From a virus: DNA of 44,770 nt. The stretch lies in IMG/VR virus record IMGVR_UViG_3300024520_000011, positions 1 to 44,770 of that record. One strand, 5' to 3'. Below, in pieces: positions 4,903 to 32,213 of this stretch. A model generated the notes under the pieces. It made no database searches. It saw only the letters and a list, made by a program, of their open reading frames with translations, and was not told the origin of the DNA. Position numbers and translations under genes: made by a program. Positions within the stretch are counted from its first letter, which is position 1, and each line of letters starts with the position of its first letter.

Positions 4903-6974
4903 TAACAGGCGAAATCATAAAGCCCATCTTTACAAAGATATTTGAGAGAATCAAGGGTGGACTGCCCGCAATGCCGCCTCTCTTTGCTCCTATCGCCTGG
5001 CTGTTTAACACTGAAGGCTTTGGCTCTGAAGGGGATAATACCGTTGTCATTGACAGCGTGGGGGATAATATTCGTTCTCCCGTTGGTTCGTGCTATGATT
5101 TTGACGGGACGGATGACTTTGTTGTTTTTGGCAATGAGCATAATTTCAACGCTCAAAGTTTCTCCGCGTCATGCTGGTTTAAAACGACTTCAAGCGTGAC
5201 TTTCCGGTTGTGGGACAAAAGAGGAACGGGAGGATTTGGCTCTAATATTCCGGGCTTCCAAATATCTGCCCAGGCAGCGTGGGGCAACGCTGCAATAGAC
5301 GATGGTCTTGGCAATTATGTTCGCTTCGACTCTGTCCCTTACAACGAAGGGGACGGCGAATGGCATAACCTTGTGATGACGTGGGATACTGACTCGGGTA
5401 CGGCAAAGTTCTGGATGGATAGAGTGCTGAAGGGCACTCAGGTCAACCCGGCGATGGTAAATGCGGATTTAACAACTACCCGGCATTTGGCTTTTGGCTG
5501 TGCATGGGACGCTGCAGGAAGCCAATCTCAGCATTTTGAGGGGCAGGCGTGGGATGCGAGGCTGTTCGACACCGCTTTGGAGCAAGCTGATATAGACAAA
5601 ATTTATGCTTTTGATCCACAGGTCGCCGGAGCTATTTTATTTTGCAAGTTTGAGGAAACCCGTGGGCTCTTTGCCTTGGATTGCGCGGGGAGTGTCAATG
5701 GCGATATCATGAATATTGCAGACGAAAGCTTGTTTCATGTACCTAATTTTCTGTATTCATTTGCGGATGCTGTTGGATATACTGATGATCCTGCGTATAT
5801 AATACCGAGAAGCGAAGCAAATACCACGCTGGATGCAAACGGCGGGGCATTACAATATCCGGACAGAGCAAAATACAGCCCAAAATTAGTTGAAAGCGCA
5901 TGCGTGTTTTTCCATGGGCCTACCACAATAGCGGAGGCTCCGGCCGATGCAAGCCATACCAATATTTTTGATGGGGGCGGCAAGGTGGAAGTCGGCATTT
6001 ATCCCACCAGCGTAGTCGGCGGCTTGGGTTTTTCGGGGTTTTGCCGGAAACCGCAATCATGGCGTTTCTTACTCACTGACCCGGTTGGCGACGATGCCAA
6101 GGTTTTGTTAATCTTTCCTTTTGACGTGACAAACGGGCAGTACGAGACCACAGCCAGGGCTATTACAGTCGGGAACTGGTATGATTTGGAGATTACCCAC
6201 GATGTTGACAGTATAAGTAACGTGCCGATACTGAAGATAAACGGCAATGTTGAGCCACTGACTATCGTCCAGTCTCCCGTTGGGCTGAGGAATGATGACA
6301 CGGTGAAACCGATAGAGATGGGGAATATAACAGCTTTAGACAAGGGGTTTTTGGGGTACATGCGGGATTTGAAGCTTTATAAGCAGGGAGTTTTAAAAAA
6401 TCATTACCCTATGAGCGGACAGAACAATCCAGATTTTTTGTTTGATGTGGAAAGCGGCGCCCATTTAGTCCCTTCAAACTTTACCACTTTGACGCAATGG
6501 AGCATAACGCAGGGCAGCGTTCATTATAATATCCAGAATGGCGTGTCCCTATATGAGCATTTGACTGAGTTGCCGATTATAATTCCTTACGATAATGCAG
6601 GGCTTCCAATTTCCTACACACCTCCAGCCGGTTATACCTTAACAGGCGATTACCCGGGCGGTGACGGAGTATTCCCAAAGGGTGTTGAGACGAAATTTAG
6701 ATTTTATACAAGCTATGGCGATCTTTTGCCGGCGGCTATTTATCAGATAAACGAAATGGACGGGAACGAATTTTTAGGAAATACAGCGACCGGAGATTCA
6801 TATGCAATCGGATATAATGACATGGTAGCGGATGTGGGCGGGAATATTTTAACGGATGTAACAGATCCGAATCATAAAAAGGATTTTCGGATATTTGAGG
6901 TGGTAATAAGCATAACATGGGATTCAGTTGAAATCACGTGGGACGCCGTTGATATAACGTGGGATTCAGTATAG
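4899..6974 (+). CDS. Tail fibre/spike-like protein with LamG (concanavalin-like) domain
   Basis: 691 aa. Residues about 60-235 form a Laminin-G/concanavalin-like lectin domain: YDFDGTDDFVVFG opening, a FSASCWFKTTSS strand, EWHNLVMTWDTDSGTAKFWM in the middle, and WDARLFDTALEQADIDKIYA closing, all canonical LamG_3 landmarks. A second lectin-like region follows (about 330-500; 'VGNWYDLEITHD', 'GFLGYMRDLKLYKQG'). LamG domains bind glycans, so a receptor-binding or adhesion role is likely. The C-terminus has three copies of ITWD(S/A)V(E/D), encoded by a 21-bp tandem repeat. No pectate-lyase or sialidase motif was seen. Confidence 0.7.
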   Translation: MITGEIIKPIFTKIFERIKGGLPAMPPLFAPIAWLFNTEGFGSEGDNTVVIDSVGDNIRSPVGSCYDFDGTDDFVVFGNEHNFNAQSFSASCWFKTTSSVTFRLWDKRGTGGFGSNIPGFQISAQAAWGNAAIDDGLGNYVRFDSVPYNEGDGEWHNLVMTWDTDSGTAKFWMDRVLKGTQVNPAMVNADLTTTRHLAFGCAWDAAGSQSQHFEGQAWDARLFDTALEQADIDKIYAFDPQVAGAILFCKFEETRGLFALDCAGSVNGDIMNIADESLFHVPNFLYSFADAVGYTDDPAYIIPRSEANTTLDANGGALQYPDRAKYSPKLVESACVFFHGPTTIAEAPADASHTNIFDGGGKVEVGIYPTSVVGGLGFSGFCRKPQSWRFLLTDPVGDDAKVLLIFPFDVTNGQYETTARAITVGNWYDLEITHDVDSISNVPILKINGNVEPLTIVQSPVGLRNDDTVKPIEMGNITALDKGFLGYMRDLKLYKQGVLKNHYPMSGQNNPDFLFDVESGAHLVPSNFTTLTQWSITQGSVHYNIQNGVSLYEHLTELPIIIPYDNAGLPISYTPPAGYTLTGDYPGGDGVFPKGVETKFRFYTSYGDLLPAAIYQINEMDGNEFLGNTATGDSYAIGYNDMVADVGGNILTDVTDPNHKKDFRIFEVVISITWDSVEITWDAVDITWDSV
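6912..6971 (+). repeat. 21-bp in-frame tandem repeat, three units
   Basis: Units at 6912-6932, 6933-6953 and 6954-6971 (last one truncated by the stop) encode ITWDSVE, ITWDAVD and ITWDSV at the extreme C-terminus of the LamG fibre. The units differ mainly at synonymous positions plus Ser/Ala and Glu/Asp, so the peptide appears conserved while the DNA has drifted. The copy number could vary by slippage. Confidence 0.85.
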
Positions 6975-18099: not shown

Positions 18100-18128
18100 T
18101 TGACTTTTCTTTCCTGCCGTGCAATAGT
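18100..18128 (+). promoter_or_regulatory. Rightward early promoter
   Basis: TTGACT (18100-18105), 17-bp spacer, AATAGT (18123-18128, 4/6). It drives the HTH gene at 18160. The 14 bases from the -35 (TTGACTTTTCTTTC) recur at 32185-32198. Confidence 0.6.
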
Positions 18129-21704: not shown

Positions 21705-21736
21705 GCTGGCTGTAGGTTAAAGAATCTGCAGCCAGC
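21705..21736 (+). other. Intergenic RNA hairpin
   Basis: GCTGGCTGTAG (21705-21715) pairs with CTGCAGCCAGC (21726-21736) through 11 bp including one G-U, loop of 10. No T-run follows, so it is not a classical terminator; it may act as a transcript stabiliser or processing site between 21691 and 21772. Confidence 0.6.
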
Positions 21737-21967: not shown

Positions 21968-22267
21968 ATGAAAGACAAAAGAATCAAACAATTTATTGCG
22001 TTTTTAGACACATTGCCGGACATTGATGAATATAGGTATAAAGAAGATGGAAAGTACCTCATTACTAATGAATGGCTTTGCGGCACGTTTGCTGGGCGTG
22101 GCTTTGTTGGAGATACACCCAAAGACGCCGCTATGCAGCTCATGGATTACTTTGACGAACATTTAAATCACAAAAGCTGGGTTGGTGGTGGTGTTACAGA
22201 AAGCGGATGGCCTGATTTGGATAAAGTTAAAAGCTACATAGACACTTTTGATAGATACAATAAATAA
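21968..22267 (+). CDS. Hypothetical protein (99 aa)
   Basis: MKDKRIKQFIAFLDTLPDID, then YLITNEWLCGTFAGRGFVGD and a helical LMDYFDEHLNH region. It has a compact alpha/beta look. It begins 1 bp after the preceding stop and is the last gene before the ncRNA interval. Confidence 0.6.
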   Translation: MKDKRIKQFIAFLDTLPDIDEYRYKEDGKYLITNEWLCGTFAGRGFVGDTPKDAAMQLMDYFDEHLNHKSWVGGGVTESGWPDLDKVKSYIDTFDRYNK

Positions 22268-22270
22268 CCC

Positions 22271-22299
22271 TTGACAAAGCCATTAAAGGTTGCAATAGA
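22271..22299 (+). promoter_or_regulatory. Promoter of structured RNA
   Basis: TTGACA (22271-22276), 17-bp spacer and AATAGA (22294-22299). The -10 neighbourhood GCAATAG is the same as in the rightward early promoter at 18121-18127. Transcription would begin near 22306. Confidence 0.6.
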
Positions 22300-22305
22300 G
22301 AATAC

Positions 22306-22443
22306 ACAGCGTTGGGGAGCGCTTTTTAATGAAAATAAGAACATCTAAAATAAAAATAAAGCCTTATCAGAGGTGGGGAGCTATCCCCAAAAAGAGTTGT
22401 ACTCATAGATGTTCGGCTCTCCGCTTCTGATAGGGCTTTTTTT
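22306..22443 (+). ncRNA. Structured non-coding RNA with 24-bp stem and predicted pseudoknot
   Basis: The interval lies between a promoter and a terminator and carries no ORF. Elements in order: a weak hairpin AGCG/CGCT at about 22308-22323 whose loop holds GGGGAG; a single-stranded region containing GAACATCTA (22339-22347); the left arm 22358-22381; a 34-base loop that contains TAGATGTTC (22406-22414), the exact complement of GAACATCTA; and the right arm 22416-22439. The two arms pair along all 24 bp (four G-U pairs), then the 9-bp helix would form a pseudoknot. GGGGAGC in the first hairpin (22314-22320) duplicates the left-arm segment 22375-22381, so it could compete for the right arm, as in a riboswitch or antiterminator. 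Expected length about 138 nt. It could be a trans-acting RNA or a 5' leader of the HNH gene. Confidence 0.65.
22358..22443 (+). terminator. Long-stem terminator
   Basis: The 24-bp stem described for the RNA ends in a seven-T run (22437-22443). It precedes the HNH gene's ATG (22461) by 17 bp, so it may limit read-through into the replication genes unless pairing is changed. Confidence 0.7.
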
Positions 22444-22460
22444 GTTTATGGAGGTAGCTA

Positions 22461-23261
22461 ATGCCAAAAAGAAAAGCATTGTCTAAAAAGTTAAGATTTG
22501 AGGTTTTCAAAAGGGATGGTTTTAAATGTGTATATTGCGGACGCTCCGCTCCGGAGGTTATTCTGCATATTGACCACGTAAAACCAGTTGCCAAGGGAGG
22601 TAAAAACACTCTTGTAAACCTTGTGTGCTCTTGTTTTGATTGCAATATAGGGAAAGGCGCAAGAGAACTGAGCGACGATTCTTTAATTTCTAAACAAAAA
22701 AAACAAGCAGATAAAATAAAAGCCCGCCAAGAGCAACTGGAAATGATGGTGAAGTGGTATGATTCTCTTGAAAAAATTCAAACAACTGAAATGGAAGTGC
22801 TTGTAAAAAAATGGCATCAGTACGTAAAAAAACAATATAGGCTGAGTCAAGAAGGTCAAAGGGATATGAAAAAACACCTTAAAAAGTATGGTTTCCAAGA
22901 GGTTTTAAATGCTATGGCTACAGCTACTGAGCAATATTTAAAATATAACGAAAAGGAAGAGATTGAACAAAAGTCGGTTAATTTAGCTTTTAAAAAAATA
23001 AGCGGGATTTGTAGGATTAGAGCATTCGATGGTAAAGACAAGGAAATATATAAAAAAGTTTATTACATAAGAGGAATACTCAAAAACAGGGTTTCCATGT
23101 CCGCTCTCGGCTGTAAACAATGCATTGGTTTTATAATAGAAAGCCATAAAACAAACAAAATTCCGTTAGAGAAAATACAATCGATAGCAACGAGATGTAA
23201 TAGCTATTATGATTTTCAAACAGAGATTGATAATCTTGCGGAAGGGATCAACAATGGCTAA
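22461..23261 (+). CDS. HNH endonuclease-domain protein of the replication module
   Basis: 266 aa. The first 75 residues are an HNH nuclease: RFEVFKRDGFKCVYCGRSAP (CxxC), HIDHVKPVAKGG (the H-D-H block) and LVNLVCSCFDCNIGKGAREL (N plus second CxxC). The remaining 190 residues are basic helix without a known signature. It begins after TGGAGGTAGC. Phage HNH proteins may cut DNA for replication, packaging or homing; the position right before the initiator suggests a replication role. Confidence 0.85.
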   Translation: MPKRKALSKKLRFEVFKRDGFKCVYCGRSAPEVILHIDHVKPVAKGGKNTLVNLVCSCFDCNIGKGARELSDDSLISKQKKQADKIKARQEQLEMMVKWYDSLEKIQTTEMEVLVKKWHQYVKKQYRLSQEGQRDMKKHLKKYGFQEVLNAMATATEQYLKYNEKEEIEQKSVNLAFKKISGICRIRAFDGKDKEIYKKVYYIRGILKNRVSMSALGCKQCIGFIIESHKTNKIPLEKIQSIATRCNSYYDFQTEIDNLAEGINNG

Positions 23262-24090
23262 AAACAGACCCGTTAATAGCGATTTTTGGATAGACGAATT
23301 TATCGAATCTTTGACAGTAAAGGAAAGATATTTGTTTCTTTACCTTTTAACGAATCCTGATTGTCATATTTCAGGAATATATAAAACTACAGTTAAAAGA
23401 ATGGCGACTGATACTGACTTAACTAAAAAAGAAGTTGAAAAAGCTTTGTCCCGGTTTTCTGCTAAGGATAAAGTTTATTTTAAAGAAGGGTATATTGTAA
23501 TAGTAAATTTTCTTAAATACCAAAAACCGAATACTTTGATGATAAAGGGGATCGAAAAGGCTTTGAAAGCCTTACCTAACCCTTTGAAAGGCTTTATCGG
23601 TTCTAAGGAATCTAAAATTTTCTTAAATATTCAGCGTACTTCTAAAGCCTTTGAAAGCCTATTGAAAGCCTTTGAAAGGATAAATAAGAATATAGATATA
23701 GATAAGAATGAAAATAATAATGAAGATGAAGATGAAGATGCTGAAGTTTCCGAAATACCGGATTTCTATTTACGACTTGCTGACCGATTTTATCAAAAGA
23801 AAAAAACCCAAACGAATGTTAAAATTGGATACCATCAAGAAAAATGGGCAAAGGTTTTGCATCAGCTTGAATATATAGACAAGTACACACAGGACATAAT
23901 CACAAAGGTTTTGGAGTTTGCCTTAAATGATGACTTCTGGATTACAAATCTGATTTCACTGGCTGGCATAAGGAAAAAGAGCAAAAACGAATTATCAAAG
24001 TTTGCAAACATACTGGCTAAATGTGAACAAAGAAATAATGGCAAAAAACAATACGAAAATTATGAATCAGAAGCCTACAAGGTGATATAA
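23254..24090 (+). CDS. Replication initiator / replisome organiser
   Basis: 278 aa from the ATG at 23254 (8-bp overlap with the HNH gene). The N-terminal 100 residues (VNSDFWIDEFIESLTVKERY, then LTKKEVEKALSRFSAK and YIVIVNFLKYQKP) form a winged-helix domain of the type found in phage replisome organisers. A Lys/Asp/Glu-rich linker follows, then a helical C-terminus (QEKWAKVLHQLEYIDK, KNELSKFANILAKCEQRNNG) that would load the helicase. The coding DNA of the middle part carries iterons, as in lambda O. The DnaB-type gene begins at its stop. Confidence 0.75.
   Translation: MAKNRPVNSDFWIDEFIESLTVKERYLFLYLLTNPDCHISGIYKTTVKRMATDTDLTKKEVEKALSRFSAKDKVYFKEGYIVIVNFLKYQKPNTLMIKGIEKALKALPNPLKGFIGSKESKIFLNIQRTSKAFESLLKAFERINKNIDIDKNENNNEDEDEDAEVSEIPDFYLRLADRFYQKKKTQTNVKIGYHQEKWAKVLHQLEYIDKYTQDIITKVLEFALNDDFWITNLISLAGIRKKSKNELSKFANILAKCEQRNNGKKQYENYESEAYKVI
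23559..23740. other. Putative replication origin (iterons plus AT-rich stretch) inside the initiator gene
   Basis: Near-palindromic copies of CCTTTGAAAGG/C occur at 23559-23571 (GGCTTTGAAAGCC), 23581-23591, 23648-23659 and 23669-23679, with a half copy at 23660-23670. A purely A/T and purine-rich run follows at about 23680-23740. Iterons plus an AT-rich melting region inside an initiator gene is the layout of ori-lambda. Confidence 0.65.
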
Positions 24091-25499
24091 TGACAATACT
24101 CCCCCCTCAAAATTTAGAAATGGAAGAGAGCTTGATAGCCTCTTGTTTCTTAGAGAAGTCTTTGGTCAGTGAAATTTGCGGCATACTAAACCATACGGAT
24201 TTTTACCAAACTTCACACCAGTTAATTTTCAAGGAGATTGAGATAGCCAATCAGGCAGGTTCAGAATTTGATCTTGCAACTGTGGTCAGTTCCCTAAGAG
24301 AAAAAAAGCTTTTAACGAAATGCGGTGGAGCCTCTAAAATAAGCTGTATGTTTGATACCGTACCACGAGCCTCTGCCCCAAAGAAATATGCCTTAAAAGT
24401 AAAAGAGTTGAGTATAAGAAGGCAGTTAATTGACAGGGTGCAGGGCATTAACCGGGATGCTTACGGGTTTGAAGTTCCCACTGAGCTTCTTTTAAGCAAT
24501 GCAAAAAAGGCAATAGCGGATTTGGTTTTAACTGGCACGGCTTCTGAAATAGTGGAGTTTGCTGATTATCAAATGGAATGCACAAGCCGATATGAAAAGC
24601 TTCAGAAATACCAGGGCATGACGGGAGTAACAACGGGATATTACAAGATAGATGAGCTTACTTGCGGGTTCACACCGGGAGATTTAATCATTTTAGCAGC
24701 CCGCCCGTCCATGGGAAAAACTGCGTTTGCTGTAAACATGATGACAAAACAATGTCGGGAGGATATCCCGGTCGGTTTTTTGTCTCTGGAAATGACCAGG
24801 TTGAAAATTCATAATCGAATTAATGCGGCTGGTGCTAAAATAGACAGCCTTAAATTCAGAAGCGGGGGGTTCACCTCTCAAGAGTTTAAAAGCTTATCGG
24901 ATTTTATGCCAGCTAATTCATATTGGCAATTACACATTGATGACAGCACGGGGATAAATCAAAACCAGATCCGATCAAAGATTCAGTTTTTCGTGCAGGA
25001 AAAGGGCGCGCAAATTGTCTATATTGATTATTTGCAACTCATAAAATCAGCCGCTACATACAAAAGAAAAGACCTTGAAATAGGGGATATTGTTCAGGAC
25101 ATAAAAGCCATGGCAAAGGATTTCAATATTCCGATTGTGCTGTTATCTCAACTGAACAGAAATCTTGAATCCAGAGAGAACAAAAGACCAAGACTTTCTG
25201 ATTTGCGTGAATCCGGCGCTATAGAGCAAGAGGCGGATATTGTTATTTTTTTGTATCGACGCAGTATGTATACAGATTTTGAGTATTTCATGTTTAGAGG
25301 ACAGCCGTACGCTCTTACACTGGAATCTCTGAAGTCTAAAAAAACAGACCCGGCTGTAAAAAAAGCATACTGGATGGATGCGGAGGCGATTTTTGCAAAG
25401 CACAGGGACGGGAGCCTGGGGACGGTTAAGTTGGGCTTTGAGCGTGAATTTACACAATTCCATAACATATCGGGGGAGCGCAATGAAGCGGGTGAATAA
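24090..25499 (+). CDS. DnaB-family replicative helicase
   Basis: 469 aa, typical length. The N-terminal domain (ESLIASCFLEKSLVSEICGI, DFYQTSHQLIFKEIE) matches DnaB_N, and the RecA-like core has Walker A ARPSMGKTAFAVNMM (near residue 207), IVYIDYLQLIKSA as Walker B, VLLSQLNRNLESRENKRPRL and SGAIEQEADIVIFLYR. It unwinds the phage DNA as a hexameric ring, loaded by the upstream initiator. Start ATG overlaps the initiator's TAA by one base. No DnaG-like primase was found, so host primase is presumably used. Confidence 0.95.
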   Translation: MTILPPQNLEMEESLIASCFLEKSLVSEICGILNHTDFYQTSHQLIFKEIEIANQAGSEFDLATVVSSLREKKLLTKCGGASKISCMFDTVPRASAPKKYALKVKELSIRRQLIDRVQGINRDAYGFEVPTELLLSNAKKAIADLVLTGTASEIVEFADYQMECTSRYEKLQKYQGMTGVTTGYYKIDELTCGFTPGDLIILAARPSMGKTAFAVNMMTKQCREDIPVGFLSLEMTRLKIHNRINAAGAKIDSLKFRSGGFTSQEFKSLSDFMPANSYWQLHIDDSTGINQNQIRSKIQFFVQEKGAQIVYIDYLQLIKSAATYKRKDLEIGDIVQDIKAMAKDFNIPIVLLSQLNRNLESRENKRPRLSDLRESGAIEQEADIVIFLYRRSMYTDFEYFMFRGQPYALTLESLKSKKTDPAVKKAYWMDAEAIFAKHRDGSLGTVKLGFEREFTQFHNISGERNEAGE

Positions 25500-32017: not shown

Positions 32018-32184
32018 TTATATGTATTGTCTTGTTACTCACTTTTTTCGGTCCGGTTCGTGTTCATTGTTCATTCGTTGTTCTGATCTCAGAAGCCCCT
32101 TGAGAATATTCTTAGCCGATTTAAGGCTAAAATAATATAGATCAGGGGGTTTTCTGTTTCTGCTTCTTGCTTTTATAATATAGT

Positions 32185-32213
32185 TTGACTTTTCTTTCTA
32201 AATATGCTATTAA
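32185..32213 (+). promoter_or_regulatory. Rightward promoter sharing a 14-bp block with the early promoter
   Basis: TTGACT (32185-32190), 17-bp spacer, TATTAA (32208-32213, 4/6). The 14 bases TTGACTTTTCTTTC are identical to 18100-18113, and a TAGTT precedes both. Confidence 0.5.

Follow-up and report, generated by a model that had tools for sequence, protein, structure and literature searches.

We analysed a leader element at positions 22271-22443 of a 44,770-base virus record (IMGVR_UViG_3300024520_000011; the whole record is called the window below), which has no close relatives in the collections searched. The element stands directly ahead of genes for an HNH endonuclease, a DnaD-like helicase loader and a DnaB-like helicase, and we lean towards reading it as the transcription-attenuator leader of this phage HNH-DnaD-DnaB operon. 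Two mutually exclusive RNA folds, the order in which they arise, their significance and the recurrence of their layout in two unrelated loci were found by computation. The model built on them supposes that the leader is transcribed, that the choice of fold sets read-through and that some signal biases this choice; under this model the leader is probably a genuine on/off switch. More tentatively, the element may belong to a new class of bistable leaders in phages, recognisable by architecture and not by sequence, that would sense a signal and time the HNH nuclease and replication genes.

Two predicted exclusive folds of the leader RNA

The arms 22358-22381 and 22416-22439 pair completely over 24 base pairs (bp), four of them G-U, exactly as an earlier note made from the sequence had it; U22382 and G22415 add a 25th pair, which is also G-U. 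The resulting hairpin is the strongest T-tailed hairpin in the window and has its longest stem by 10 bp, the runner-up having 15 bp. No stem above 15 bp was obtained when the stretch from 20 to 24 kb was shuffled 40 times. The fold of 146 nucleotides (nt) reaches -53.4 kcal/mol (z = -6.5, 0/200 shuffles) and the terminator has z = -6.9. The terminator has five pairs that are not Watson-Crick, all of them G-U on the + strand, and the - strand forms a much weaker fold (-35.6), so that selection appears to act on the + strand RNA. The run of seven Ts at 22437-22443 and the distance of 17 nt from it to the HNH start codon (ATG at 22461) were also given correctly in the earlier note. The gap from the terminator to the HNH gene is too short to hold a promoter. 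An intrinsic terminator (25-bp stem and seven Ts) separates the HNH gene from a promoter recognised by motif only, with no promoter after it.

The second fold draws on two further matches that had been noticed before and proved exact. First, GAACATCTA (22339-22347) and TAGATGTTC (22406-22414, in the terminator loop) are perfectly complementary; complementarity of at least 9 nt was found in 20/3000 shuffles of the loop and upstream sequence. Second, GGGGAGC at 22314-22320 is duplicated at 22375-22381 in the left arm, with TGGGGAGC as the common stretch (36/3000 shuffles). The order of folding was taken from predicted folding of the lengthening transcript, which covers nested structures only. 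Up to about nucleotide 22431, prediction favours a multibranch structure that GAACAUCUA:UAGAUGUUC closes. This helix, P1 (22339-22347:22406-22414), forms once its second strand has been transcribed and encloses three hairpins, two of which mask the left arm of the terminator. Hairpin H1, which lies at the extreme 5' end of the RNA if transcription starts at about 22304-22306, opens once 22416-22422 has been transcribed, and the first GGGGAGC pairs there (helix P0). Since P0 and P1 are both part of the early fold, what had been described as a competitor segment and a pseudoknot belong to one alternative fold. Between 22430 and 22434 the probability of P1 drops from 0.998 to 0.08, and that of the terminator reaches 0.90.

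The P1 segment of the early fold alone has z = -5.4 (0/1000 shuffles). In a control in which the terminator stem was left paired, its columns were permuted and the remainder was shuffled, transcripts ending at 22415 folded at -33.3 vs -18.0 +- 2.9 (0/1000), and of 1921 segments matched in length and GC, a single region, that of the terminator near 32.1 kb, was more stable; the tested segments were picked after being noticed, so that true significance is lower than these figures imply.

P1 and the terminator have no nucleotides in common and their topology is crossing, with links of 9-10 nt against 28-34 bp of stacked helix in the window and in the related layout L085 described below. A 10-nt link cannot readily span a stacked helix of about 34 bp, and the two helices should therefore not coexist in full. 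They are better read as alternatives than as a static form of the pseudoknot proposed earlier; a pseudoknot may form transiently as the RNA switches. The earlier idea of two exclusive folds holds up in prediction, both folds being significant, and the antiterminating one is predicted to arise first.

These folds suggest how the leader may work. An RNA starting near 22305 would first adopt the multibranch fold closed by P1, masking the left arm, and P0 would capture the beginning of the right arm. If the early fold lasted until the polymerase cleared the T tract, transcription would read through into the operon. If it yielded, the right arm would invade the left arm, the 25-bp terminator would form and an RNA of about 140 nt would be released. 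A ligand, a protein, a trans-acting RNA or the speed of transcription may bias the choice between the folds.

Recurrence of the layout before other HNH genes

Two other leaders have the same architecture as that of the window, with unrelated sequence and a homologous HNH gene downstream. The first (L003) is on a virus contig, IMGVR_UViG_3300037458_000574, and its HNH is 41% identical. Its promoter, TTGACA-17-TAAGTT, scores 14.0, and TGCGAGGATCACG lies within 5 nt of the inferred start; the complement of TGCGAGGATCACG lies in the 38-nt terminator loop, which gives an exact 13-nt P1 (1/5000 shuffles). The L003 terminator has 11 bp, is G+C-rich, ends in seven Ts and stands directly ahead of the HNH ATG. 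Its right arm (4980-4998) carries a G-rich stretch (TCGGGGGGTAG) just ahead of the Ts and the ATG, so that one hairpin might control translation as well as termination. The second (L085) is on contig JAPLAM010000005.1, a metagenome-assembled genome (MAG) of Arthrobacter sp. Here the promoter TTGCGT-17-TATACT is followed by a P1 of 17 positions with one mismatch (16/17; 0/300 shuffles), a 12-bp terminator with the 3' strand of P1 at the end of its loop, a T-rich tail, the HNH open reading frame (ORF) and, as in the window, a gene for a DnaD-like loader.

From inferred start to ATG, the three leaders measure 143-160 nt. The 3' strand of P1 abuts the right arm in both the window and L085, with P1-to-terminator links of 10 and 9 nt, respectively. 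P1 is predicted to fold before the terminator in all three; the terminator is finally favoured in the window and L003, and L085 at full length keeps P1 at equilibrium (0.88). The early folds of L003 (3/500) and L085 (2/500) also beat controls with the stem held.

The layout scan covered 106 T-tailed hairpins with loops of 15-70 nt in 908 kb of loci. Only the window, L003 and L085 have an HNH gene with such a hairpin at most 45 nt upstream. Complementarity of at least 9 nt between loop and upstream sequence was found in 3/3 hairpins preceding HNH genes vs 2/103 others, or 2/2 vs 2/103 with the window left out (roughly 1e-3 by our own arithmetic), in a sample built around HNH genes that tests specificity for HNH weakly. 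A scan for crossing helices that did not require a T tail returned 4/126 HNH genes and 11/694 others; among the tails listed, those of the window and L085 alone are T-rich. It missed L003, where the ORF start is called upstream. The loci may owe their shared layout to a common ancestor, the sequence having turned over completely since, or to convergence. The layout of the putative class would be a promoter, the 5' strand of P1 near the RNA start, the left arm of the terminator, the 3' strand of P1 in the loop by the right arm, a T tract and the HNH-replication genes. As a separate observation, a Neomarinimicrobiota MAG contig (L047, 1912-2172) carries, ahead of its HNH gene, a strong promoter, a pair of T-tailed hairpins and GGGTCGG in repeated form; a crossing helix was not found there.

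All 4227 Rfam families gave no match in the window (best sub-threshold score 21 bits vs 55 needed), in line with the earlier remark that no known family was recognised, and nothing above threshold in the L003 and L085 leaders. Viral contigs searched with the HNH, DnaD-like, 99-residue (99-aa), DnaB and portal proteins and with three DNA patterns contained no sequence relatives of the element, and a portal search of genome contigs returned none. The HNH alignment in genome contigs (80 loci) showed no comparable long hairpin; the shorter L085 terminator surfaced in the later layout scan. A two-copy, single-sequence covariance model, which is insensitive, was run against the window, 50 loci and, within one phylum, 398 genomes, and found nothing credible.

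Promoter, surroundings and competing explanations

Table 1 Features of the leader and neighbouring genes in the window. P, pairing probability; SD, Shine-Dalgarno.
Feature	Positions	Strand	Remarks
99-aa ORF	21968-22267		Upstream neighbour of leader element
Promoter TTGACA-17-AATAGA, TGC before -10	22271-22299	+	Motif recurrence; inferred RNA start about 22304-22306
H1, 5'-end hairpin AGCGUU-GGGG-AGCGCU, then U run	22308-22323	+	Opens once P0 forms
P0 5' strand, first GGGGAGC copy	22313-22320	+	Pairs with 22416-22423; P about 0.97-0.98 (transcripts ending 22422-22430), near 0 beyond 22434
33-codon ORF	22329-22430	+	Codon score -0.127 per codon (true coding 0.12 +- 0.07); SD duplex -7.0 kcal/mol vs gene median -7.25
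P1 5' strand GAACAUCUA	22339-22347	+	Perfectly complementary to 22406-22414; P about 0.999 until terminator is complete
Terminator left arm	22358-22382	+	25 bp with 22415-22439, five G-U; contains second GGGGAGC copy
Hairpins P2a (22361-22365:22370-22374) and P2b (22375-22379:22384-22388)	22361-22388	+	Hide left arm in early fold
P3 hairpin GAGU-UGU-ACUC	22394-22404	+	Fits both folds
P1 3' strand UAGAUGUUC	22406-22414	+	Inside terminator loop, abuts right arm
Terminator right arm	22415-22439	+	Initial nucleotides also pair with first GGGGAGC (P0)
T7 tract of intrinsic terminator	22437-22443	+
HNH endonuclease gene, PHROG 16986 type	22461-23261	+	Pfam HNH 3.1e-11, phrog_16986 9.5e-58; first gene past switch; SD 22450-22454
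DnaD-like helicase loader / replisome organiser gene	23209-24090	+	phrog_1701 6.3e-17
DnaB-like replicative helicase gene	24090-25499	+	Pfam DnaB_C 5.7e-82

The consensus-spaced promoter of the earlier note (Table 1) survives in part. Its -35 box, TTGACA at 22271, is perfect; its -10 box, AATAGA, is a poor sigma70 match, and a consensus scan did not report the site. The pattern TTGACW-N14-TGC-AATAGW has exactly two sites with zero mismatches in the window, 22271-22299 and 18100-18128, the latter in a divergent region ahead of the first rightward gene of the early operon; the pattern was derived from its own two sites, and its recurrence is not an independent test. The 8-mer TGCAATAG lies at equal distance from TTGAC in both promoters, which seems unlikely to be due to chance. 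Elsewhere, ahead of the packaging genes (window 32092-32213), an imperfect terminator is followed by a promoter-like site, which has TTGACTTTTCTTTC in common with the early promoter at 18100.

Several results weigh against an attenuator. As the element has no sequence relatives, strict covariation is lacking. The weak -10 box has been noted above. At equilibrium the window terminator is favoured by about 14 kcal/mol, so that the early fold could act only kinetically or when stabilised, and nested-path barriers of 15-20 kcal/mol do not fix the default state. Past the HNH gene of L003, the genes are not recognisable as replication genes. In the majority of HNH relatives, among them all eight extra phages, no leader of this kind is present and the HNH gene follows its upstream neighbour immediately. 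T-tailed hairpins show no significant excess before HNH genes (3/109) over other genes (9/735).

The most serious competitor, which we nevertheless regard as unlikely, is an ordinary strong terminator that closes the early operon upstream, or the 3' terminus of an independent small RNA of about 140 nt. The early fold would then be incidental, and the HNH gene would be expressed by leakage or by phage antitermination as at lambda tR1. The classical stem with its seven Ts, the promoter-like site of its own and the thermodynamic dominance of the terminator fold are all consistent with this. It is opposed by the missing promoter space before the HNH gene, by the significance of the early fold even with the stem held and by the crossing-helix layout of L003 and L085. 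The two folds, the lack of promoter space and the shared architecture likewise favour the regulatory RNA or riboswitch-like leader that the earlier note had offered among its options, whereas the anti-host RNA it also named found no support.

Attenuation controlled by another RNA, in the style of satellite phage P4 or plasmid pIP501, is a good deal less probable. A trans or antisense RNA would pair with the leader, for example at the duplicated GGGGAGC, and force the terminator. There is precedent, as pIP501 RNAIII attenuates the repR leader (PMC4981023), and in the window, ahead of replication genes, a single GCUCUCC is matched by two copies of GGGGAGC. Minus-strand promoter scores over the leaders of the window, L003 and L085 were low, however, and none was convincing; no GGGGAGC-type duplicate was seen in L003 or L085; and no integrase or repressor was recognised in the record, which leaves an immunity role unsupported.

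It is very improbable that the attenuator is controlled by translation, with ribosomes on the 33-codon ORF (SD = first GGGGAGC) blocking the terminator. This ORF qualifies the earlier description of a stretch without an ORF: it exists, its average SD overlaps P0 and its end lies within the right arm. Yet all the real coding segments tested score higher in codon usage, and homologue searches found none for its peptide. We rejected it as a leader peptide on codon usage and judge it probably non-coding. Past the stop of the 99-aa gene, 26 coding-like codons continue in frame (window 22268-22345), perhaps a decayed gene end; their QRWGA motif also occurs in the 33-codon ORF. Equally hard to credit is a hairpin processed by RNase III, or a replication origin primed by a transcript, with a promoter, an AT-rich stretch and a strong hairpin near replication genes: the 25-bp duplex, the AT-rich 22327-22361 and the adjacent DnaD/DnaB genes would fit, but GC skew tracks gene direction with no switch at the leader, the palindrome is imperfect at the DNA level with G-U pairs preserving the RNA stem, and P1 and its recurrence are left unexplained.

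Three further observations concern the surroundings. The P2b region (window 22376-22395, GGGAGCTATCCCCAAAAAGA) and the start of HNH translation (22453-22472, GGTAGCTAATGCCAAAAAGA) are identical at 16/20 positions (2/2000 shuffles), possibly a shared binding site or an old duplication. Repeats of the AAAGCCTTTGAAAGCC type within the DnaD-like gene (window 23556-23679) are candidate replication-origin iterons. A 14-bp hairpin without a T tail lies between two small early ORFs (window 21705-21736).

Comparison with known systems

Searches of an open-access library found no account of a leader ahead of HNH-replication genes in phages. Like riboswitch-type attenuators with an intrinsic terminator, the element has a 5' leader, an early metastable fold, a terminator that replaces it and a regulated gene directly downstream. 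It differs in having no Rfam match or assigned ligand, and in that P1 would exclude the terminator by masking the left arm and by geometry. With respect to metabolite riboswitches, Rfam returned no known aptamer family and the three leaders show no sequence conservation; a new aptamer is possible. A type III antitoxin RNA, made up of tandem pseudoknot repeats with a ToxN-like gene downstream, does not fit, there being no Rfam match and the downstream gene being HNH, not ToxN-like.

Structured RNA upstream of an HNH-containing ORF is also found in IscB/omega-RNA (HEARO), and the HNH domain of this phage family (window 22461-22660) resembles that of IscB, which has RuvC as well as HNH. Its match to NCBIfam guided_IscB covers the HNH part only, at 53.5 bits vs a cut-off of 175; the protein is HNH-only, the leader has no Rfam match and no RNA is present upstream in close HNH relatives.

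Plasmids such as pT181 attenuate a replication gene within its leader. The pIP501 system (RNAII/RNAIII) would share this with the window, but a scan of the leader detects no antisense promoter or antisense RNA, nor do the leaders of L003 and L085 show a countertranscript promoter. In early phage transcription, termination and antitermination occur at lambda tR1. In HK022, the put RNA is a nascent RNA element that controls early termination (PMC9378689). Nascent RNA elements would govern termination here too; put acts on the polymerase to pass distant terminators, whereas the competition predicted in the window leader is internal. Satellite phage P4 also uses premature termination (PMC4825925). 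Its termination immunity (CI RNA, seqA, seqC) resembles the window in terminating before replication genes and in having a duplicated segment that faces one complement; it differs in arrangement, and the window leader has no Rfam match and lies in a record without signs of lysogeny.

If the attenuator reading is true, phages control their entry into DNA replication through an RNA attenuator for which layout is the one means of detection, sequence similarity and covariance libraries being unable to find it. The terminator would be excluded mainly via crossing-helix geometry, and a layout search could find such expression platforms in many more genomes. The HNH gene widely adjoins phage replication initiators, and its regulation would offer a route to its role. 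Riboswitch expression platforms, plasmid rep attenuation and P4 premature termination may serve as the nearest working analogues of the leader, which we assign to none of them.
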